64,000 bases of DNA, from assembly GCF_000385375.1 (NCBI RefSeq), contig NZ_ARVV01000001.1, positions 186,001 through 250,000 of the forward strand. The letters run 5' to 3'. Under the pieces are notes generated by a model. The model worked only from the letters and a program-made list of their open reading frames with translations. It was not told the origin of the DNA and ran no database searches. Source of the stretch: Methyloversatilis discipulorum. Lineage in GTDB: Bacteria; Pseudomonadota; Gammaproteobacteria; Burkholderiales; Rhodocyclaceae. Positions within the stretch are counted from its first letter, which is position 1; each line of letters begins with the position of its first letter. This document shows, piece by piece, positions 28,883 to 38,531 of the stretch. A program made the position numbers and the translations under genes.

Positions 28883-29989
28883 ATGCGGGGCCTCGCACTG
28901 GAATCTCCCGCAATGCACGTCCCGTCGGCCGGTACCGATACCCTCTCCCGCGCCGACCGGCACGACGCCGCGTCGCGCCTCGCGGTATTCGACACGCTGA
29001 AGGCGGTCGCGTCACAGCTCATCGTGCTGCATCACCTGGTCGCCTACGGTCCGCTGGCGGAGGCCTTCCGCAGCCGCTTCCCGCAGCTCGCCGACTGGCT
29101 CTACTACGACGGGCGGCTCGCGGTGCAGGTGTTCTTCGTCATCGGCGGCTTCCTCGCTGCCCGCGCGCTGGCGCCGGCGCTGCAGCCGCGACCGCTGTCG
29201 CTGCCGGCGGTGCTGTGGAAGCGCTATCGCCGGCTCGCACTGCCCTGCATGGCGGCCGTGCTGATCAGCGTCGTCTGCGCCGCGATTGCCCGCGCGCTGA
29301 TCGACGACCCCAGCCTGCCCGGTACGCCCTCGGTCGGTCAGCTGCTGGCGCACGCACTGCTGCTGCAGGACATCGTCGGCGTCGAGGCACTGTCGGCCGG
29401 TGTCTGGTACGTGGCGATCGACTTTCAGCTGTACGCGATGGCGGCGCTGCTGGTCTGGCTGGCCTCGCACACCGGTCCGACACGCCACGCCGTCGTGCTC
29501 GCCGCGATCACCGCCGGCGTCGCTGCCGCGTCGCTGTTCGTGATCAATCGCGACACCGGTTGGGACGTCGCCGGTCCTTACTATTTCGGTGTCTATGCGC
29601 TGGGGGCAGCCGTCTGCTGGTTGTCCAGACCAGGCCGCTCGCTGCTGTGGGGGGCGGCAGTCGCCGCCGCCGTGCTGCTGGCGCTGACCCTGGAACACCG
29701 CGAGCGCGTGGCGTTTGCTGGCTGCGTGGCGCTGCTGCTGTGGGGCGGTCTGCGCAGCGGACTGCTGACGAAATGGCCGGACCTTCCGGCGCTCGCCTTC
29801 CTCGGCCGGATCTCGTTCTCGGTCTTCCTGATCCACTACCCGGTGGCCATGCTGGTAAACGCCTTCGTTACCCGTCTGTGGGGCGCGACGCCGGATACCG
29901 CGCCGCCAGCACTTGCCTTCGCCTGGGCGGCCAGCGTGGCCGCCGGTGCGCTGTTCCATCGCCAGGTCGAACGGCGCTGCGCCGGCTGA
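28883..29989 (+). CDS. Acyltransferase 3 family membrane protein
   Basis: A 368-residue protein with about ten membrane helices. The acyltransferase 3 signature is visible: FDTLKAVASQLIVLHHL with the conserved His pair, FFVIGGFLAARAL, and a C-terminal LGRISFSVFLIHYPV. Such enzymes O-acylate sugars, glycans, lipids or small aromatic compounds at the membrane. The start may instead be the ATG at 28913. It sits 128 bases upstream of the ammonia-lyase gene on the same strand; a link to that cluster is possible but unproven. Confidence 0.87.
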   Translation: MRGLALESPAMHVPSAGTDTLSRADRHDAASRLAVFDTLKAVASQLIVLHHLVAYGPLAEAFRSRFPQLADWLYYDGRLAVQVFFVIGGFLAARALAPALQPRPLSLPAVLWKRYRRLALPCMAAVLISVVCAAIARALIDDPSLPGTPSVGQLLAHALLLQDIVGVEALSAGVWYVAIDFQLYAMAALLVWLASHTGPTRHAVVLAAITAGVAAASLFVINRDTGWDVAGPYYFGVYALGAAVCWLSRPGRSLLWGAAVAAAVLLALTLEHRERVAFAGCVALLLWGGLRSGLLTKWPDLPALAFLGRISFSVFLIHYPVAMLVNAFVTRLWGATPDTAPPALAFAWAASVAAGALFHRQVERRCAG

Positions 29990-30117
29990 ATCCCTTGTGC
30001 GCGTGAAACCCCGCCGCCCGGCCGCTGTCTTCGCTTGCGCCCGCTGCCCGGGCGACACTACGCAGCCTGGCCGCCCGCTGCCATGCTTCGCCTGGTGTCC
30101 ACTTCGATAGGGATCTC

Positions 30118-31680
30118 ATGACCGCCGCCGTACCGGAACACGATGACGTCGTTTTCGACGGTCGCCCGCTCGACATCGAGGCGATTGCCGCGATCGCCGA
30201 CGGCAGGCGTCGCGCCGTGCTGTCGACCGAGGCAGCGTTCCGCGCCCGCATCGACGCCGGCGCCCGCGCCGTGCTGCAGCTGCTCGCCGACGACGGCGTG
30301 ATCTACGGCGTCACCACCGGCTACGGCGAGTCGTGCACGGTGGCGGTGCCTGCCGGGCAGGTGGCGGAACTACCGCACCACCTCTACACCTATCACGGCG
30401 TCGGCATGGGACGCCTGCTGGAAGCCGACGAGACGCGCGCGGTGCTGGCCGCGCGGCTGGCCTCGCTGTGCCAGGGCATGTCCGGTGTGCGCTACGAGCT
30501 GCTGCAGCATCTGGCGGCGCTGCTCGAGCACGACATCCTGCCCTGCATTCCGGCCGAAGGCTCGGTCGGCGCCAGCGGCGACCTGACGCCGCTGTCCTAC
30601 GTCGCCGCCGCGCTGTGCGGCGAGCGCGACGTGCGGTGGCGGGGGCGGCGCATGCCGGCGCGCGAGGCGCTGGCCGAAGCCGGCATCCAGCCGCTGTCGC
30701 TGCAGCCGAAGGAGGGGCTGGCCATCATGAACGGTACCGCCGTCATGACCGCGCTGGCCTGTCTCGCGTGGCAGCGGGCACAGCGCTGCAGCCGCATCGC
30801 CACCCGCCTGACCGCGCTGAATGTGTTCGCGACTGCCGGCAACCCGCACCACTTCGACGCGCTGCTGTTCGCCGCCAAGCCGCACCCGGGGCCGCAGGCG
30901 GTCGCTCGCCGGCTGCGCCGCGACCTCGCTTGCGACGCCGGCGCGGCACGCAATCCGGCGCGGCTGCAGGACCGCTACTCGCTGCGCTGCGCGCCGCACG
31001 TGATCGGCGTGCTCGAAGACGCGCTGCCCTTCACGCGGACGCTGATCGAGAACGAACTGAACAGCGCCAACGACAATCCGCTGATCGACCCGGACAGCGG
31101 GCGCGTGCTGCATGGCGGACATTTCTACGGCGGTCACGTCGCGTTCGCGATGGACAGCCTGAAGACCGCGGTCGCCAACGTGCTCGATCTGCTCGACCGC
31201 CAGCTCGCGCTGCTGGTGGACAGCCGCTTCAGCCACGGCCTGCCCGACAACCTGACGGCGGCCACCGGCGAACGCGGCGCACTGAACCACGGCCTGAAGG
31301 CGCTGCAGATCGCGGTGTCAGCGTGGACCGCCGAGGCCCTGAAGACCACCCTGCCGGCGTCGGTGTTCTCGCGCTCGACCGAGTGCCACAACCAGGACAA
31401 GGTGAGCATGGGCACGATCGCCGCGCGCGACTGCCTGCGCGTGCTCGAACTGGGCGAACAGGTGCTGGCGGCGATGCTGGTGTCGGCGCGGCAGGCGGTC
31501 GCGCTGCGCGGCCGCATCGACGCCGGTGCGCTGCCGCCGGAGCTGGCGCACACGCAGTCGTGGCTCGAGGCCCGCATTCCGCTGGTGGTCGAGGACCGCG
31601 CGCTCGACCATGAACTGACCCGGCTGGTGGACGTGCTGCGCACAGGCAGCGCCAGCGACGTGCTGGAGTCGGACGGATGA
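30118..31680 (+). CDS. Aromatic amino acid ammonia-lyase (probable tyrosine ammonia-lyase for the PYP chromophore)
   Basis: A 520-residue enzyme of the HAL/PAL/TAL family. The tripeptide that cyclises into the MIO electrophile is Ala152-Ser153-Gly154 in GSVGASGDLTPLS. Other active-site blocks are YGVTTGYG (residues 63-70), ENELNSANDNPL and STECHNQDKVSMG. In this family the substrate is set by two residues in the loop after the first helices; here they align to Tyr92-His93 (LYTYHGVGMG), neither the His-Leu of the Rhodobacter TAL nor the Ser-His of histidine lyases. Position next to a CoA-ligase-like gene and pyp argues for tyrosine to p-coumarate. Histidine lyase (HutH) is unlikely: no hut genes are nearby. 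AGGGA precedes the ATG. Confidence 0.88.
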   Translation: MTAAVPEHDDVVFDGRPLDIEAIAAIADGRRRAVLSTEAAFRARIDAGARAVLQLLADDGVIYGVTTGYGESCTVAVPAGQVAELPHHLYTYHGVGMGRLLEADETRAVLAARLASLCQGMSGVRYELLQHLAALLEHDILPCIPAEGSVGASGDLTPLSYVAAALCGERDVRWRGRRMPAREALAEAGIQPLSLQPKEGLAIMNGTAVMTALACLAWQRAQRCSRIATRLTALNVFATAGNPHHFDALLFAAKPHPGPQAVARRLRRDLACDAGAARNPARLQDRYSLRCAPHVIGVLEDALPFTRTLIENELNSANDNPLIDPDSGRVLHGGHFYGGHVAFAMDSLKTAVANVLDLLDRQLALLVDSRFSHGLPDNLTAATGERGALNHGLKALQIAVSAWTAEALKTTLPASVFSRSTECHNQDKVSMGTIAARDCLRVLELGEQVLAAMLVSARQAVALRGRIDAGALPPELAHTQSWLEARIPLVVEDRALDHELTRLVDVLRTGSASDVLESDG

Positions 31681-32930
31681 GCGCCCCTTGGCACGCCGAC
31701 GGCCCGGCGCTGGAACGCGTGCTCGCCGACCTGATCGCCGACGAGGTGCGACGGCTGCGGCCCGGCGGCTCACCGCTGCCGCAGCAGCCATGGTCGGCGT
31801 CGATGGCCTTCGACGACAGCGGCTTCGGGCTCGATTCGCTGGAGCGCCATACGCTGGCCGCCGCCATCGCCGAACTGCTGCAGCTGCACGACAGCACGGT
31901 GATCGATGCGCTGCCGGCGGCAAGCACCTTCGGCCAGTACTGCGCGCTGGCCCGCGAAGGCCTCGCGCAGGATGGCCGCCGCCTGACCTTCCGCACGTCC
32001 GGCAGCACCGGCATGCCGAAGGCGTGCACCCACGCGCTGACGATGCTGGAAGAAGAGGTCGATGCGCTGGCCGCCCACATCGGGCCGCGCCGGCGGGTGC
32101 TGGTCGCGGTGCCGGTCCATCACATCTATGGCTTCATCTTCGGCGTCCTGCTGCCGCCCAGCCTGGGCACGCACGATGTCATAGATGTGCGGCCGCTGCC
32201 GCCGCAGGCGCTGGCCGGCCGGCTGCAGCCGGGCGATCTGCTGGCGAGTCATCCCGCGCACTGGTCGCTGCTCGCCCGCTTCGGCCCGCGGCTGCCGGCT
32301 GACGTCGTCGGCACCACTTCCACCGCACCCTGCCCGGATGCGCTGGCCGACGCGCTTCTGGCGCAGGGTCTGGCGCGTCTGCTGCAGATCTACGGCAGTT
32401 CGGAGACGGCCGGAATCGGCTGGCGCGACGCCGCTGGCGCGCCCTACACGCTGATGCCGCACTGGCGCCGCGCGGTTGCCGACGATGCTGTACTGCTGCG
32501 CCGCGCAGCCGATGGCAGCGAACAGCCTGCGGCGCTGCAGGACCTGATCGAGTGGCTGCCGGACGGGCGCTTCCGCCTGGCCGGGCGGCGTGACGAGGCG
32601 GTCCAGGTGGCGGGCATCAACGTGTTTCCGGCGCGGGTGCGCGACGTGCTGCTCGAACACCCGCTGGTCGAGGCGTGTGCGGTACGCCGCATGTCGCCGA
32701 CCGAGGGCGAACGCCTGAAGGCCTTCGTCGTGTTGCGCGCAGGCGCCACCCCGGCCGCACTGCTGCCCGCACTTGAAGCGTGGGTGAGGGAACGCCTGTC
32801 GGCGCCCGAGTGTCCACGCGCCTGGTCGTTCGGCGACCAGTTGCCGGCAGACGCCCGCGGCAAGCTGGTCGATTGGCCGATCGCGCCCTCGTTGCCTCCT
32901 CAAGTTCGCGGGTGCACTCCCGATAACTGA
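31677..32930 (+). CDS. p-Coumarate--CoA ligase-like adenylating enzyme with N-terminal carrier-protein-like segment
   Basis: A 417-residue member of the AMP-forming (ANL) family. It shows the P-loop FRTSGSTGMPKACTH, the motif IYGSSETAG, the hinge region RLAGRRDEAVQVAGINVFP and the C-terminal catalytic Lys in DARGKLVDW. It should adenylate p-coumarate and transfer it to a thiol (CoA) for attachment to PYP. It is shorter than plant 4CL (about 540). The first 90 residues are not ligase-like: DDSGFGLDSLERHTLAAAIAELL (written in two parts, DDSGFGLDSL and ERHTLAAAIAELL) resembles an acyl-carrier-protein helix II with Ser54 in the 4'-phosphopantetheine position. The start overlaps the lyase stop by 4 bases (ATGA). 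Confidence 0.85.
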   Translation: MSAPWHADGPALERVLADLIADEVRRLRPGGSPLPQQPWSASMAFDDSGFGLDSLERHTLAAAIAELLQLHDSTVIDALPAASTFGQYCALAREGLAQDGRRLTFRTSGSTGMPKACTHALTMLEEEVDALAAHIGPRRRVLVAVPVHHIYGFIFGVLLPPSLGTHDVIDVRPLPPQALAGRLQPGDLLASHPAHWSLLARFGPRLPADVVGTTSTAPCPDALADALLAQGLARLLQIYGSSETAGIGWRDAAGAPYTLMPHWRRAVADDAVLLRRAADGSEQPAALQDLIEWLPDGRFRLAGRRDEAVQVAGINVFPARVRDVLLEHPLVEACAVRRMSPTEGERLKAFVVLRAGATPAALLPALEAWVRERLSAPECPRAWSFGDQLPADARGKLVDWPIAPSLPPQVRGCTPDN

Positions 32931-33013
32931 TCCGTTGTCCGGAGTGTCCGCTGCCTCCGCATTGCCATCCGGCGCACCTCAAGGTGTCCGTTGATACCGA
33001 CCCAGGGAGCACC

Positions 33014-33406
33014 ATGAATACGGAACAGACCCTCTCGTTTTCCAGCGCAGCACTGTTTGACTATCTCGACCGCGCCAGCGATGCCGAGCTCGACAGCCTC
33101 GACTTCGGCGTCATCGGCATGGACGACGCAACCCAGGTCAGACGATACAACCGCTTCGAATCGGCCGCCGCCGGCCTGTCGCCCGAACGGGTGATCGGGC
33201 ACGCGCTGTTCACCGTGGTGGCGCCGTGCATGAACAACTTCATGGTTGCCCAGCGCTTCGAGGACGCGCAGCAGGACGGCAGCGTGCTCGACGACACCAT
33301 CGACTACGTGCTGACGCTACGCATGCGCCCGGTCAAGGTGAAGCTCAGATTGCTCGCCCGACCCGGCAGCGGCTTGCGCTATGTGCTGGTCCACCGCCAG
33401 ACCTGA
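33014..33406 (+). CDS. pyp: Photoactive yellow protein (blue-light receptor)
   Basis: A 130-residue PAS-fold photoreceptor, close to the 125 residues of the Halorhodospira protein. The chromophore cysteine is Cys72 in VVAPCMNN, matching Cys69 there. Tyr45 and Glu49 in RRYNRFESA match Tyr42 and Glu46, which hydrogen-bond the p-coumaryl phenolate. Met104 and Pro106 in LRMRPVKVK match Met100 and Pro102. The positions of Thr50 and Arg52 are Ala53 and Leu55, a notable difference in the chromophore pocket. The ATG at 33014 has AGGGAG 5 bases upstream; an in-frame GTG at 32984 is less likely. It lies 83 bases after the ligase gene and 12 bases before a GGDEF gene. Confidence 0.95.
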   Translation: MNTEQTLSFSSAALFDYLDRASDAELDSLDFGVIGMDDATQVRRYNRFESAAAGLSPERVIGHALFTVVAPCMNNFMVAQRFEDAQQDGSVLDDTIDYVLTLRMRPVKVKLRLLARPGSGLRYVLVHRQT

Positions 33407-33418
33407 GCCGGAGCACGC

Positions 33419-34729
33419 ATGAGCGCACCGGTAGAAGAGGAATACGAAGCGCTGCTGCAGTTCATGTACATGGCGCCGATAGGCCTTGTACAGACGCTGG
33501 CAGACGGCGAGATCACGATGATCAATCCGCTGTGCGCGCAGCTGCTGATGCCGCTCTCCCCGGACGGCCAGTTGGCCAATCTTTTCACCGCGCTGGAAGC
33601 CGTGGTGCCCGACCTGCGACAGCGGGTGCAGGATTTTCCGGACCTGCACGGCACGGTGTGCGACGCGCTGCAGGTGCCGATCGCGACCGGTCAGCCCGGC
33701 CGCAGACAGAGCCAGGTGCTGGCGCTGACATTGCTCAAGCTCGACGCCGAGCGGCTGATGGCCGTCATTTCGGACGTGACGCAGTCGGTCCGACGGGACC
33801 GCGAACTGCGCCAGAGCCAGGCCTGGATCAACACGCTGGCTATAGGCCTTACCGACTACGCCCTGGTGTCGCTCGACAACCATGGCTGTGTGCAGGACTG
33901 GAACCCGAGCATCGCCCGCATCACCGGCTTCACCGAGGACCAGGTGATCGGTCGCAGCCTGTCGATGTTCTACCCGGAAGACGCGATCTCCGAACAGCGT
34001 GTGCTCGACCGGCTGCACGAGGCCGACCGCACCGGCTGGAGCCTGGACGAGGGCTGGTGCGTGCGCGCCGATGCCGGTCGCTACTGGGGCAGCTGCCTGA
34101 TCGCCCCGCTGCACGACCGCGACGACGCGCTGACCGACGAACACGCCTACAGCCTCATCATCCGCGACGTGTCAGACCGGCGCGAGGCGGCGGAAGCGCT
34201 GCTGAAGGCGGTGTCCTGCGATCACCTGACCGGCCTGCTGAACCGCCGCGCCTTCGTCGAGGCGGTCGAGCTGGAGATGCAGCGCTGGGCGCGCTTCCCG
34301 CGGCCGCTGTCGCTGGTGATGATAGACGCCGACCATTTCAAGCGCATCAACGACCAGTACGGGCACGCCGCCGGCGACGCCGTACTGCGCCATCTCGCCG
34401 CCGGCATGACCGCGACCTTCCGTGCGATGGACGTGCTGGCGCGCTTCGGTGGCGAGGAATTCGTCGTGCTGCTGCCGGACACCACGCTGGAGGGTGCCGA
34501 GGTGGTTGCCCAGCGCCTGTGCCAGCTGCTCGCGTCGCAGGCGGTCGAGGTCGGCGGGCAGGCCGTGCGCTACACCATCAGCGCCGGCATTGCGACGATG
34601 GATGCCGACGTGAGCGATTTCGATGCCCTGATGCAGCGTGCCGACGAGGCGCTCTATGCCGCCAAGGCCGGGGGCCGCAACCGGGTTGAGCGCTGGCAAC
34701 CGGCGCTTCAATCGGCGGCCGTCCGATGA
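33419..34729 (+). CDS. PAS-PAS-GGDEF diguanylate cyclase, linked to PYP
   Basis: A 436-residue soluble protein with no membrane segment. Residues about 8-125 form a PAS-like domain (FMYMAPIGLVQTLADGEITMINP) shared with the next gene. About 135-255 is a second PAS/PAC (VSLDNHGCVQDWNPSIARITGFTEDQVIGRSL written here in parts: DWNPSIARITGF and EDQVIGRSL). About 260-430 is a GGDEF domain with the active-site loop GGEEF at 344-348 and an intact product-inhibition I-site RAMD 5 residues upstream. It should make c-di-GMP from GTP. It begins 12 bases after pyp, so it is almost certainly cotranscribed and is a good candidate to receive the PYP light signal. The stop overlaps the next start. Confidence 0.93.
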   Translation: MSAPVEEEYEALLQFMYMAPIGLVQTLADGEITMINPLCAQLLMPLSPDGQLANLFTALEAVVPDLRQRVQDFPDLHGTVCDALQVPIATGQPGRRQSQVLALTLLKLDAERLMAVISDVTQSVRRDRELRQSQAWINTLAIGLTDYALVSLDNHGCVQDWNPSIARITGFTEDQVIGRSLSMFYPEDAISEQRVLDRLHEADRTGWSLDEGWCVRADAGRYWGSCLIAPLHDRDDALTDEHAYSLIIRDVSDRREAAEALLKAVSCDHLTGLLNRRAFVEAVELEMQRWARFPRPLSLVMIDADHFKRINDQYGHAAGDAVLRHLAAGMTATFRAMDVLARFGGEEFVVLLPDTTLEGAEVVAQRLCQLLASQAVEVGGQAVRYTISAGIATMDADVSDFDALMQRADEALYAAKAGGRNRVERWQPALQSAAVR

Positions 34730-36543
34730 AGCCCGACAGCGACCCTGAGGATCTGCAGCCGCCCGCTTACGAGGCGTTGATCCAGTTCCTCTACCAGGCG
34801 CCGATAGGCCTGCTGCAGATCCGGCCCGACGGCACGGTGACGATGATGAATCCGCGCTCGGCGCAGTTGCTGATGCCGCTGGCGCGGCAGGGCAATCTGG
34901 ACAATCTGTTCGAGGTGCTGGACGAGGTGGCGCCCGATCTGCGCGCCATGGCCGACGCCGCCATCGAGCCGGGTGCGCTGGTGTGCGAGGGGCTGCGCAT
35001 GCCGGTGCGGTCGACGGCCGGTGGCCGGCGCGTGCTCGGCATCAGTCTGCTGCGGCTCGACGCCCACACCATCATGGGCTGCGTCAATGACGTGACGCAC
35101 GAGGTGGAACTGGAACAGCAGCGTCTGGCCTCGCGGATGCGCGACGCCTCGCGCACCGACAGCCTGACACTGATGCCCAACCGCTCCGCCGTGCTGGAGC
35201 GGATACAGCAGGCGCTGGCGCGCCACGACGCTGGCGGTGCGCCCACCTTTGCCGTGCTGTTCATCAACTGCGACCGTTTCAATCGCGTCAATCTGACGCT
35301 TGGGCAGGCCGGTGGCGACCGGCTGCTGCGCATGGTGGCCGAGCGGCTGAATGGCACCGTGCGTCAGCGCGACGCCGTCGGTCCGGCGCAGGAGCCGCTG
35401 CACACGACGGCCCGCCTCGGCGGTGACGAGTTCGTCGTGCTGCTCGACGGCCTGCGCGACAGCGAGGACGTGCACAGCATCGCGCAGCGGCTGATCGACA
35501 CGCTGTCCCGCCCCTATCTGATCGATAGCGTCGAGGTGCACATTTCTGCCAGCATCGGCGTCGTCGCCGGCATACATGCCGCCGCCGAAGCGAACGCCGT
35601 GCTGCAGGACGCGAGCCTCGCCATGCAGGAGGCGAAGCGCGCCGGCGGCGGGCGCCACGTGCTGTTCACGCCGTCGATCAAGGACATCGCAACCCGCCGT
35701 GGCGCACTCGAACTGGAACTGCGACGGGCGCTCGAACAGGACGAACTGTTCGTCGTCTATCAGCCCATCGTCGAGCTGACCGACGGTCGCGTCGCCGGCT
35801 TCGAGGCGCTGGTCCGCTGGCAGCATCCGCAGCGCGGTCTGGTGTCGCCGGTCGAATTCATCGAGATTGCCGAGGAGTGCGGCCTGATCGGCGCGGTCGG
35901 CGAATTCGTGCTCGATTCGGCCTGCCGACAGCTGGCGGCGTGGCAGCGCCGTTTTGGCGCGCAGGCGCCCGGCATGGTGTCGGTCAACCTGTCGCGAGCA
36001 CAACTGCAGGACGCCGCCATCACCGACCAGGTCGCGCGCGTGCTCGAAGCGAGCGGCCTGCCGGCGCAGGCACTGCAGCTGGAACTGACCGAAAGCATGG
36101 CGGCGCAGGGCGACGACATCCGCGCCCGCCTGCTCGAACTGAAAGCGCTCGGCCTCGCGCTCGCGCTGGACGATTTCGGCACCGGCTATTCCTCGCTGGC
36201 CTGTCTCGGCCAGCTGCCGATCGACACGGTCAAGATCGATCGCTCCTTCGTCGCCGACGCCGAGAGCAATCTGCACAAGCGGGTACTGATAGAAGCCACC
36301 GTGCGCGTTGCTCGCAGCCTCGGCATGAGCACGACCGCCGAAGGCATCGAGACCGAAGGTCAGGCGGCGCTGCTGGCGACGCTGGACTGCAACAAGGGCC
36401 AGGGCTATCTGTGGTCGCGCCCGCTGGCCGCACACGCCGCCACGCAATGGCTCGCGGCACAGATCGGAGCGACCGATCTGCTGTCGGACCAACCCCATCC
36501 TTCCGCCGCGCCCTTGCGCGCCGCCTCCGGCTTCGTGGCCTGA
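34726..36543 (+). CDS. PAS-GGDEF-EAL bifunctional-type c-di-GMP enzyme, linked to PYP
   Basis: A 605-residue soluble protein. Residues about 9-125 form a PAS-like domain very similar to that of the preceding protein (FLYQAPIGLLQIRPDGTVTMMNP; INDV-type ending CVNDVTHEVELEQQ), so the two genes likely share a partner or ligand. The GGDEF domain carries an intact GGDEF at 232-236 but no I-site RxxD. The EAL domain has FEALVRW (EAL at 360-362), the NLSRAQLQ and DDFGTGYSSL motifs, and VKIDRSF, so phosphodiesterase activity is expected. Start and previous stop overlap by 4 bases (ATGA). It is the last gene of the PYP operon. Confidence 0.94.
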   Translation: MKPDSDPEDLQPPAYEALIQFLYQAPIGLLQIRPDGTVTMMNPRSAQLLMPLARQGNLDNLFEVLDEVAPDLRAMADAAIEPGALVCEGLRMPVRSTAGGRRVLGISLLRLDAHTIMGCVNDVTHEVELEQQRLASRMRDASRTDSLTLMPNRSAVLERIQQALARHDAGGAPTFAVLFINCDRFNRVNLTLGQAGGDRLLRMVAERLNGTVRQRDAVGPAQEPLHTTARLGGDEFVVLLDGLRDSEDVHSIAQRLIDTLSRPYLIDSVEVHISASIGVVAGIHAAAEANAVLQDASLAMQEAKRAGGGRHVLFTPSIKDIATRRGALELELRRALEQDELFVVYQPIVELTDGRVAGFEALVRWQHPQRGLVSPVEFIEIAEECGLIGAVGEFVLDSACRQLAAWQRRFGAQAPGMVSVNLSRAQLQDAAITDQVARVLEASGLPAQALQLELTESMAAQGDDIRARLLELKALGLALALDDFGTGYSSLACLGQLPIDTVKIDRSFVADAESNLHKRVLIEATVRVARSLGMSTTAEGIETEGQAALLATLDCNKGQGYLWSRPLAAHAATQWLAAQIGATDLLSDQPHPSAAPLRAASGFVA

Positions 36544-36599
36544 CTGCCGCCTGATTCGCCGCAGCGCCGCTCGCGGCGCCTAGCTGCGGTCGGCGAGCC

Positions 36600-38531
36600 T
36601 CACACTGTTGCCTGCTCGCCAAGCGCCAGCACGGCGCGATCCCGTCCTCCGTGCTTCGCCTCGTAAAGTGCCCGGTCGGCGCGCTGGAAGGCCGATTCGA
36701 ACCTGTCGTCGCTGGCACCGAGCACGGTCGCACCGATGCTCACGGTGATGTTCAACGTATGGCCGTCATGTTCGATCCGGCGCTCGCGCACCGCCTGCAG
36801 CAGTCGCTCGCCGACCTCACGCGCGCCGGTCGCATCGGTTTCCGGCAGCACGATGCCGAACTCCTCGCCGCCGAGACGGCCGAGCACGTCGCTGGTGCGC
36901 AGCGCCTGCCCGAGCGTGAGCGCGAGCGCCTTCAGCACGGCGTCGCCGGTCGGATGGCCGAACACGTCGTTTACCTTCTTGAAGTGGTCGGCGTCGATCA
37001 CCATCAGGCTCAGCGGCCGCCCGTGGCGCAACGCGACCGATATCAGCCGCTCGCTTTCGGCGGTGAAGGCGCGGCGGTTGAGCACGCCGGTCAGACCGTC
37101 GGTCGACGCCTGCCGCTGCAGTTCCAGTTCGAGGCGCTTGCGCTCGCTGATGTCGCGAATGATGCCGACGTGGAAACTCTGCGCCCCGTCGCCCGAACTG
37201 CCGACGGTGACGTCGATCGGAAACTCTCGGCCGTCCTTGTGCCGGGCCGTCACTTCGCGCCCCCTGCTCATGGCGCGTGCCTCGGCTGAGGCGTTGGCTG
37301 CCTGTACATGGCGTCGATGCGTCGCCGCTTCGGATGGCGGCATCAACATATCGAGCCGCCGCCCGGCGACCTCGTCGACGCTGTAGCCGAACAGCACTTC
37401 GGCCGCGCGATTGAACTCGACGATGCAGCTGTTGCTGTCGACGACGACCACCGCGTCGCGCGCGGTGTTCATGAAGGTCCGCGCACGGTCCTCGCTGCGC
37501 CGCAGCTGATCGGTGCGGCGGGCGACGCGGTTTTCCAGTTCCTGGTTTGCGTCGGCCAGCTGTTGCAGCGCCAGCCGGCGGCGCTGCACCTGGCGGAAGG
37601 CGAACCAGGCCAGCCCCGCGAACGCGAGGTTGCTGGCCACCGCCATGGCAACGTAACCGCCGAGGTTGCGTCGCCAGGACTGCAGCAGCATGCCTTCGTC
37701 CGCAGTGGCGGCGACGACGATGCCATAGGCGTCGGACGTTGCGTAGGCGGCCGGGCCCGGGCGCTCGTCGAGCAGGCGCTGGCGCGCGACCAGGCCGTCG
37801 GCGGCTGCGGGTAGCAGGGTGCGGAACAAGGGCATGTCGCCGGCCGTGCCTTCGACGCAATCGGATCTGCGGGGCAGGCAGGCCAGCCGATGCCCGTCGC
37901 GCAGGAACACGGACAGCGTGTATGCAGCCGGCAGACCCTGCTCGCTCAGCAGGGTCGTCAGCTGCTCCGGATCGACCGCCGCGGCGACCACGCCCAGAAA
38001 GCGATTGCCGTCGCTCTCGACCCGCCGGCTCAGCGGGAAGATGTAATTGCCGGTCAGTTTGCTGACGATGGCCGGCCCGATGAAGAGCCGGTGCTCGTCG
38101 GCGCCCGATCCGGACTGCGCCAGAAAATAGTCCCGTGTCGATACATCCAGCGCCGGGGGCGGAGAGCTGAGCGACGTCGCCGCCAGGGTGCCGTCGTGGC
38201 GCACCAAAAAGAGCGATTGCAGTTCCGGGTTGAGTGCGTGTCGGCGGACCAGCAGGCGATGCAGGGTCAGATCCGGCTCGGCCGAAATTCCGCCGTGAAG
38301 CCGCACGCCCTCGCCGATGCCGGACAGCAGCCGGTCATAGGTCGCCAGATGCTGGTCCATGCGCTGCGCGACGACGTCGACGCTCACATGCAGCGTGTCG
38401 CGCGCACGCTCCAGCGTTTCCTCGCGTGCCGCGTCGACGAACATGAACAGGCGGATGTCGAGAACGGCGAGCACAAGCAGCGCAAGCACTATCCATCGCA
38501 ACACTGCAGGGCGCTTGTGGCCGCCGTTCAT
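36600..38531 (-). CDS. Membrane-bound sensor diguanylate cyclase (Cache-like, PAS, GGDEF)
   Basis: A 643-residue protein. A membrane helix at about 10-32 is followed by a long periplasmic sensor region (about 33-290) of the double-Cache type with TRDYFLAQ and GNYIFPLSRRV. A second helix lies at about 295-315. A PAS/PAC domain (about 345-465) includes VVVDSNSCIVEFNRAAEVLFGY. The GGDEF domain has GGEEF at 554-558 with an I-site RTSD upstream. It should make c-di-GMP in response to an extracytoplasmic small molecule. It is convergent with the PYP operon, 56 bases apart, with a GC-rich hairpin between the stops. Confidence 0.94.
   Translation of the reverse strand: MNGGHKRPAVLRWIVLALLVLAVLDIRLFMFVDAAREETLERARDTLHVSVDVVAQRMDQHLATYDRLLSGIGEGVRLHGGISAEPDLTLHRLLVRRHALNPELQSLFLVRHDGTLAATSLSSPPPALDVSTRDYFLAQSGSGADEHRLFIGPAIVSKLTGNYIFPLSRRVESDGNRFLGVVAAAVDPEQLTTLLSEQGLPAAYTLSVFLRDGHRLACLPRRSDCVEGTAGDMPLFRTLLPAAADGLVARQRLLDERPGPAAYATSDAYGIVVAATADEGMLLQSWRRNLGGYVAMAVASNLAFAGLAWFAFRQVQRRRLALQQLADANQELENRVARRTDQLRRSEDRARTFMNTARDAVVVVDSNSCIVEFNRAAEVLFGYSVDEVAGRRLDMLMPPSEAATHRRHVQAANASAEARAMSRGREVTARHKDGREFPIDVTVGSSGDGAQSFHVGIIRDISERKRLELELQRQASTDGLTGVLNRRAFTAESERLISVALRHGRPLSLMVIDADHFKKVNDVFGHPTGDAVLKALALTLGQALRTSDVLGRLGGEEFGIVLPETDATGAREVGERLLQAVRERRIEHDGHTLNITVSIGATVLGASDDRFESAFQRADRALYEAKHGGRDRAVLALGEQATV

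Follow-up and report, generated by a model that had tools for sequence, protein, structure and literature searches.

Genes of a pyp operon in Methyloversatilis discipulorum

The window analysed here is a stretch of 64,000 nucleotides from Methyloversatilis discipulorum (contig NZ_ARVV01000001.1, positions 186,001 to 250,000), and all positions below are counted from its first letter. Its list of open reading frames (ORFs) places five plus-strand genes between 30118 and 36543, coding for an ammonia-lyase, a 4-coumarate-CoA ligase-like enzyme (pCL), photoactive yellow protein (PYP), a PAS-GGDEF protein (gene 1) and a GGDEF-EAL protein (gene 2). Overlaps of 4 bp join the lyase to the ligase (31677-31680) and gene 1 to gene 2 (34726-34729); the gaps are 12 bp between pyp and gene 1 (33407-33418) and 83 bp between the ligase and pyp (32931-33013). 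A preliminary description made from the window's letters and ORF list had reported this gene order with these overlaps and gaps, and re-reading the sequence against the ORF list found them exact. The arrangement is that of a pyp operon, with pyp adjoining GGDEF and EAL genes on one strand at operon spacing (the 12-bp gap and a 4-bp overlap). A pattern scan for sigma-70 promoters and terminators over 29850-36750 gave no match, which says little.

The proteins of genes 1 and 2 are both headed by a common N-terminal domain (NTD) of ~130 residues, 47% identical between the two. Because this domain was found almost only beside PYPs of one clade, clade C, it is a strong candidate for PYP's long-sought partner. 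The preliminary description had the genes right and overlooked both this shared domain and the likely division of the two proteins into a cyclase and a phosphodiesterase of cyclic di-GMP (c-di-GMP). The features of the operon are as follows.

30118-31680, plus strand: ammonia-lyase, probable tyrosine ammonia-lyase (TAL), 520 aa (PF00221, 525 bits)
31677-32930, plus strand: 4-coumarate-CoA ligase-like enzyme, pCL, 417 aa (TIGR02372, 328.7 bits)
32931-33013, plus strand: gap of 83 bp that separates the ligase gene from pyp; AGGGAG precedes the pyp ATG (sequence reading)
33014-33406, plus strand: photoactive yellow protein, clade C, 130 aa (TIGR02373, E 1.8e-23; solved PYP domains; tree of near relatives)
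33419-34729, plus strand: gene 1, NTD-PAS-GGDEF, predicted active diguanylate cyclase, 436 aa (PAS_9, GGDEF; GGEEF and DxD intact)
33422-33814, plus strand: NTD of gene 1, predicted PAS-fold domain, candidate PYP receiver
33866-34177, plus strand: second, ordinary PAS domain of gene 1 (PF13426, residues 150-253)
34217-34684, plus strand: GGDEF domain of gene 1 (PF00990, residues 267-422)
34726-36543, plus strand: gene 2, NTD-GGDEF-EAL, predicted c-di-GMP phosphodiesterase, 605 aa (GGDEF, EAL; EAL motifs intact)
34756-35130, plus strand: NTD of gene 2 (profile match, E 3.0e-54)
35155-35649, plus strand: GGDEF domain of gene 2, probably without catalytic activity (PF00990, residues 144-308; NCDRF replaces DxDxF)
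35716-36423, plus strand: EAL domain of gene 2 (PF00563, residues 331-566, 243 bits)

A 19-residue hydropathy window detected no membrane helix in the protein of gene 1 or gene 2 (maxima 1.37 and 1.52). Convergent with the operon, a gene for a dCache-PAS-GGDEF protein occupies 36600-38531 on the minus strand, 56 bp past the operon end.

The PYP belongs to clade C

The ORF frame that contains PYP (32984-33406) opens at a GTG, and the ATG at 33014, behind AGGGAG, yields a PYP of 130 residues. By alignment, the residues of the chromophore site are kept (Y45, E49 and C72, equivalent to Tyr42, Glu46 and Cys69), and the protein matches the solved PYP domains 1mzu and 1otd. Since its TIGR02373 score of 83.0 bits lies below the curated equivalog cut-off of 143.05, we did not file it under that family name; nearly all of the relatives surveyed also stay below the cut-off, which was exceeded in just one of 399 Burkholderiales genomes. 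The same alignment shows the signs of clade C, with Phe92 and Phe96 replaced by I and L and Met100 kept, and position 119, which lies outside the alignment and was read by eye, is Y (Trp119 lost). In a PYP tree of 58 rows, a near-identical M. discipulorum copy (L055) falls within a branch of 41 rows with support 100/100. The window PYP, a predicted p-coumarate-binding photoreceptor, thus belongs to clade C in the sense of PMC9664959, an assignment made on our tree of near relatives and not by rebuilding the published one. A search reported 4524 PYP relatives. In public annotation many PYPs of clade C bear the name 'phosphonate transporter', so that searching by keyword misses them.

A common domain heads both c-di-GMP proteins

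Among 23 members, no Pfam model matched the NTD better than E 0.059, and the best PAS model, PAS_8, reached E 0.16 in a single member; Pfam PAS models therefore do not place the domain in the PAS superfamily by sequence, and a sequence match to a solved structure was not found either. The fold predicted for it is nonetheless that of a PAS domain, with structural matches to sensor PAS domains, and on this predicted fold it would belong to the superfamily. The model of the gene 1 protein has a pLDDT of 82.3 and a pTM of 0.55. We found no description of an NTD common to both enzymes in the literature, a search that left supplements and subscription papers on PYP neighbours outside its range.

The NTD is found almost only beside clade-C PYP

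The M. discipulorum genome (4.25 Mb, one contig) has 47 GGDEF matches, and the NTD occurs in the two operon proteins only (E 7e-90 and 5e-29, the next match being 0.006). PYP is likewise single, with the next match at E 0.04. To follow the domain through relatives we used contig loci found by the NTD alone, taking the 80 best out of 157 relatives, a set that may include many second copies. PYP lies directly upstream of the NTD on the same strand in 79 of these 80 loci, with a median PYP-to-NTD domain distance of 13 nt (range -4 to 66 nt, n = 79); the contig of the 80th (L064) begins 99 bases ahead of the NTD, so its upstream gene cannot be judged. The adjacency of pyp and GGDEF genes on which the preliminary description had built is therefore conserved in relatives, far above chance.

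The same pairing appeared in surveys of whole genomes. TIGR02373 matched in 17 of the 399 Burkholderiales genomes at E ≤ 1e-5, 12 of them at E ≤ 1.3e-15; the weak matches in the other five (E 6e-7 to 5.5e-6, in frames of 1007-1223 aa) were set aside on those figures as ordinary PAS domains. The NTD was present in 11 genomes, which are the 11 with a clade-C PYP, and PYP stands directly before the NTD in each. The twelfth genome with a strong match (G125) holds four PYPs of another clade and no NTD. At that locus (L163, G125:C1:128000-142000) the four form two pairs flanking a ligase gene. Within the genus, conservation took the form of joint presence or absence: seven of 13 genomes carry PYP and both partner genes, the NTD occurring twice in each, and six have neither. 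Among 398 genomes of the phylum, a sample that overlaps with that of the order, PYP was found in five and the NTD in two, both with a clade-C PYP. The 172 alphaproteobacteria gave five PYP matches (62-77 bits), all outside clade C, and no NTD, an empty result that shows little; the same profile scores alphaproteobacterial plasmid copies at 95-127 bits. On plasmids, PYP was found in 13 records and the NTD in 11, where it adjoins PYP in all 11 by coordinates, as confirmed in the six records opened. For the order and phylum samples at most ten first-look candidates were scored per genome, and at most 24 for the alphaproteobacteria; for the genus and for a single family of 12 genomes all candidates were scored, which left the answer unchanged. 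Ignoring kinship, the chance figures for this co-occurrence are 1e-21 in the order sample, 6e-4 in the genus and 9e-4 in the window's own genome.

From the 80 contig loci, the PYP tree drew on every fourth and on five more selected because they have a second PYP; two short rows were dropped. Its 41-row branch is made up of all 40 PYPs that adjoin an NTD and one without. The 17 other PYPs lie outside the clade-C branch and have no adjoining NTD. Both kinds of PYP occur together in seven of these genomes or records, where the NTD stands beside the clade-C PYP only.

Three kinds of output follow the NTD

Gene 1 has an intact GG[DE]EF motif in 76 of 81 rows (the 80 loci plus the window), two of the 76 being fused proteins whose motif comes from the second module. 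The other five rows comprise one contig end, two losses of GGDEF and two changed motifs. In the window the motifs read GGEEF and DADHF, so that the gene 1 protein has the GG[DE]EF and the first Asp of DxD that mark an active diguanylate cyclase; we take this Asp to be a metal ligand, Asp327 of PleD. In gene 2 the same Asp is replaced by Asn in 68 of 71 rows and in the window, and GG is missing from 21 of 70 rows, which leaves its GGDEF domain without the cyclase signature. Its EAL motif is present in 70 of 71 rows. The remaining motifs of the phosphodiesterase set (EAL, N, E, DD, K, E) are kept in 67 of 71 rows, the other rows having gaps there, and the window has them all. The intact cyclase motifs of gene 1, together with the intact EAL and degenerate GGDEF domains of gene 2, point to gene 1 as the likely cyclase and gene 2 as the likely phosphodiesterase.

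A third output is a histidine kinase. The NTD is fused to HisKA and HATPase_c domains, both over the Pfam cut-off, in the PYP operons of four of the 11 Burkholderiales genomes with an NTD; this kinase is the sole NTD protein after PYP in G254 and G164 and follows an NTD-GGDEF-EAL protein in G029 and G284. The local domain scan of the 80 contig loci contained no kinase model. In an NTD tree of 48 rows, the phosphodiesterase type forms one branch (100/99) and the kinase type another (92/94, including one unclassified row), and the remainder is of the cyclase type. The outputs that the NTD heads beside PYP, cyclase, phosphodiesterase and kinase, are thus exchangeable.

Lyase and ligase

The first two genes probably supply the chromophore. 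The lyase is a probable TAL, its substrate assignment resting on the family PF00221: the best NCBIfam model, the BagA/FevW tyrosine ammonia-lyase, scored 412 bits, below its cut-off of 1000, and the nearest solved structure is a tyrosine aminomutase (2rjr, E 3.7e-76). The ligase falls slightly below the TIGR02372 cut-off for 4-coumarate-CoA ligase (334.7 bits). In H. halophila, a lyase and a ligase supply p-coumaroyl-CoA (PMC12826048). The complete module is not unique to the window, because eight of the 80 contig loci include a TAL, as does a plasmid from Indioceanicola profundi, an alphaproteobacterium (L170). On this plasmid pyp, pcl, ammonia-lyase, clade-C pyp and NTD-PAS-GGDEF genes form a single run that is itself a complete module.

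A proposed receiver domain for PYP and its alternatives

The gene order, the shared NTD, its near-exclusive pairing with clade-C PYP, the exchangeable outputs and the catalytic motifs are all read from sequence. Taking them together, we consider it probable that the operon is a complete light-to-c-di-GMP module in which the NTD is the receiver through which clade-C PYP acts in trans. p-Coumarate would be made and activated by the lyase and the ligase, and PYP would bind the activated product and sense blue light. Excited PYP would then act in trans on the NTD of both c-di-GMP proteins, from which the signal may run down a helix into the rest of each protein: in gene 1 to the PAS domain and then the active GGDEF domain, in gene 2 to the degenerate GGDEF domain and then the active EAL domain. 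With one receiver common to both enzymes, a single photoreceptor could set cyclase and phosphodiesterase together, probably in opposite senses and possibly within one complex. The supply of chromophore, the direct contact between PYP and NTD, the direction of the light effect and the formation of a complex are steps that we infer. In the signalling state of H. halophila PYP, the N-terminal cap unfolds, which exposes the beta scaffold to a potential partner (PMC11003764); in clade C, we propose, this partner is the NTD. We lean slightly towards a more specific version, in which the NTD is a dedicated PYP receiver, and thus the first partner module to be recognised for any single-domain PYP, docking in a light-dependent manner and serving exchangeable outputs, possibly in one push-pull complex.

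Several observations weigh against a receiver role. One genome has an orphan NTD-PAS-GGDEF gene (L161, G164:C41) with no PYP within the 11 kb taken, and a plasmid (L166, CP099603.1) has a clade-C PYP, the one member of the 41-row branch that lacks an NTD, with none within 5 kb. In two Massilia loci (L086, L090), gene 1 keeps its NTD and PAS domains and has lost GGDEF, with gene 2 intact. A second NTD was not seen in eight of the 80 loci, several of which lie where a contig ends. Genes transferred jointly as a cassette also stay together even without contact between their products, and the trees of PYP and NTD correlate with r 0.70, compared with 0.67-0.86 for other cassette pairs. As PYP and NTD do not stand out among these pairs, we rejected the tree correlation as support for the pairing.

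Three of these cases have further features. The clade-C PYP gene of plasmid CP099603.1 is convergent with a 4.1-kb gene for a PAS protein and a BLUF gene. The genome with the orphan NTD also has a worn PYP-NTD pair (L162, G164:C110; 54 and 57 bits) at a contig end, with an internal stop. The two Massilia loci offer a natural test of a non-catalytic role for gene 1.

The NTD might instead be a pairing domain that joins cyclase and phosphodiesterase (or kinase) as a heteromer, with PYP acting elsewhere, for instance on the second PAS domain of gene 1. PAS domains often dimerise, and P0013, P0014, P0124, L124 and L126 each have two NTDs within a single fused protein. We nevertheless regard this as unlikely. 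A single NTD protein stands beside PYP with a kinase in L156 and L157 and with a cyclase in plasmid loci L168 and L170-L173 and in the eight contig loci without a second NTD, so no partner NTD is needed; the second PAS domain cannot be the common contact, since gene 2 lacks it and none was detected in the kinases.

Alternatively, the NTD could sense a signal of its own, a ligand or redox state, which the operon would merge with light at the level of c-di-GMP with no contact between PYP and NTD. PAS folds often bind ligands, and the structural matches of the NTD to sensor PAS domains would suit such a role. It would be odd, however, for such a signal to be read almost only beside clade-C PYP and by three kinds of output, and no cofactor site was identified in the NTD, for which no detailed search was made; we find this account quite unlikely. 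That the genes are a mobile or selfish cassette whose functions are only loosely coupled would agree with their patchiness in the genus (seven of 13), the plasmid copies and the copies labelled Hyphomicrobiales and Gemmatimonadaceae, but is highly improbable given that the order is kept over wide divergence (mean pairwise identity 64% for PYP and 60% for NTD1, 66 loci) and that outputs are swapped with PYP-NTD retained. The contigs with those two labels (L095, L131), from metagenome-assembled genomes, hold the whole cassette through gene transfer or misbinning.

Relation to known PYP systems

PYP is among the best-studied photoreceptors. Its signalling partner is still called not known in a 2024 review (PMC11003764), and a 2026 abstract (PMC13250908) makes the same statement. 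With the NTD as candidate receiver, the question of the partner has a named, expressible place of ~130 residues in which to look and becomes directly testable for one clade. The domain also provides a possible reason for the occurrence of kinases as well as c-di-GMP enzymes in clade-C pyp operons, and such a receiver might be moved between outputs in optogenetic work.

PMC9664959 states that clade-C PYPs often adjoin GGDEF and EAL genes and draws an in-trans PYP model in its Figure 6D; PMC12826048 counts GGDEF/EAL proteins in 29 of 113 predicted pyp operons, alongside 42 operons with pCL and seven with TAL. The operon is therefore a well-equipped member of a published pyp-GGDEF/EAL kind. The preliminary description had proposed that PYP signals in trans to both enzymes. 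With its conserved adjacency this is the best reading of the sequence, but it is not new, being already a hypothesis in both papers. Its contrast with the known PYP fusions falls as a novelty for the same reason, as the arrangement in trans is already published there. What is new is the receiver-like NTD. The clade-C loci of PMC9664959 share the PYP clade, the kinds of neighbour and the in-trans model with the operon described here; its text, in the parts consulted, describes no domain common to the partner proteins and makes no connection between such a domain and the kinases that accompany clade C. The pyp operons of PMC12826048, with GGDEF/EAL, HisKA, pCL and TAL, have their outputs counted apart, and the NTD is not in Table 2; the paper calls the information insufficient for a mechanistic explanation.

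Other systems resemble the operon in part. In Idiomarina loihiensis, a single-domain PYP is believed to act upon both a neighbouring GGDEF protein and biofilm (PMC9664959), but that PYP is of clade A, unlike the clade-C PYP of the window. Ppd of Thermochromatium tepidum and Ppr of Rhodospirillum centenum likewise couple PYP to GGDEF/EAL domains or a histidine kinase (PMC9664959, PMC12826048), there in one chain fused with phytochrome, whereas the operon encodes separate proteins and no phytochrome. In CetA/CetB of Campylobacter, a signalling protein is controlled in trans by a PAS protein that serves as sensor (PMC9664959), as the NTD proteins would be by PYP; that pair uses FAD and a chemoreceptor, where the operon would use p-coumarate and c-di-GMP enzymes.

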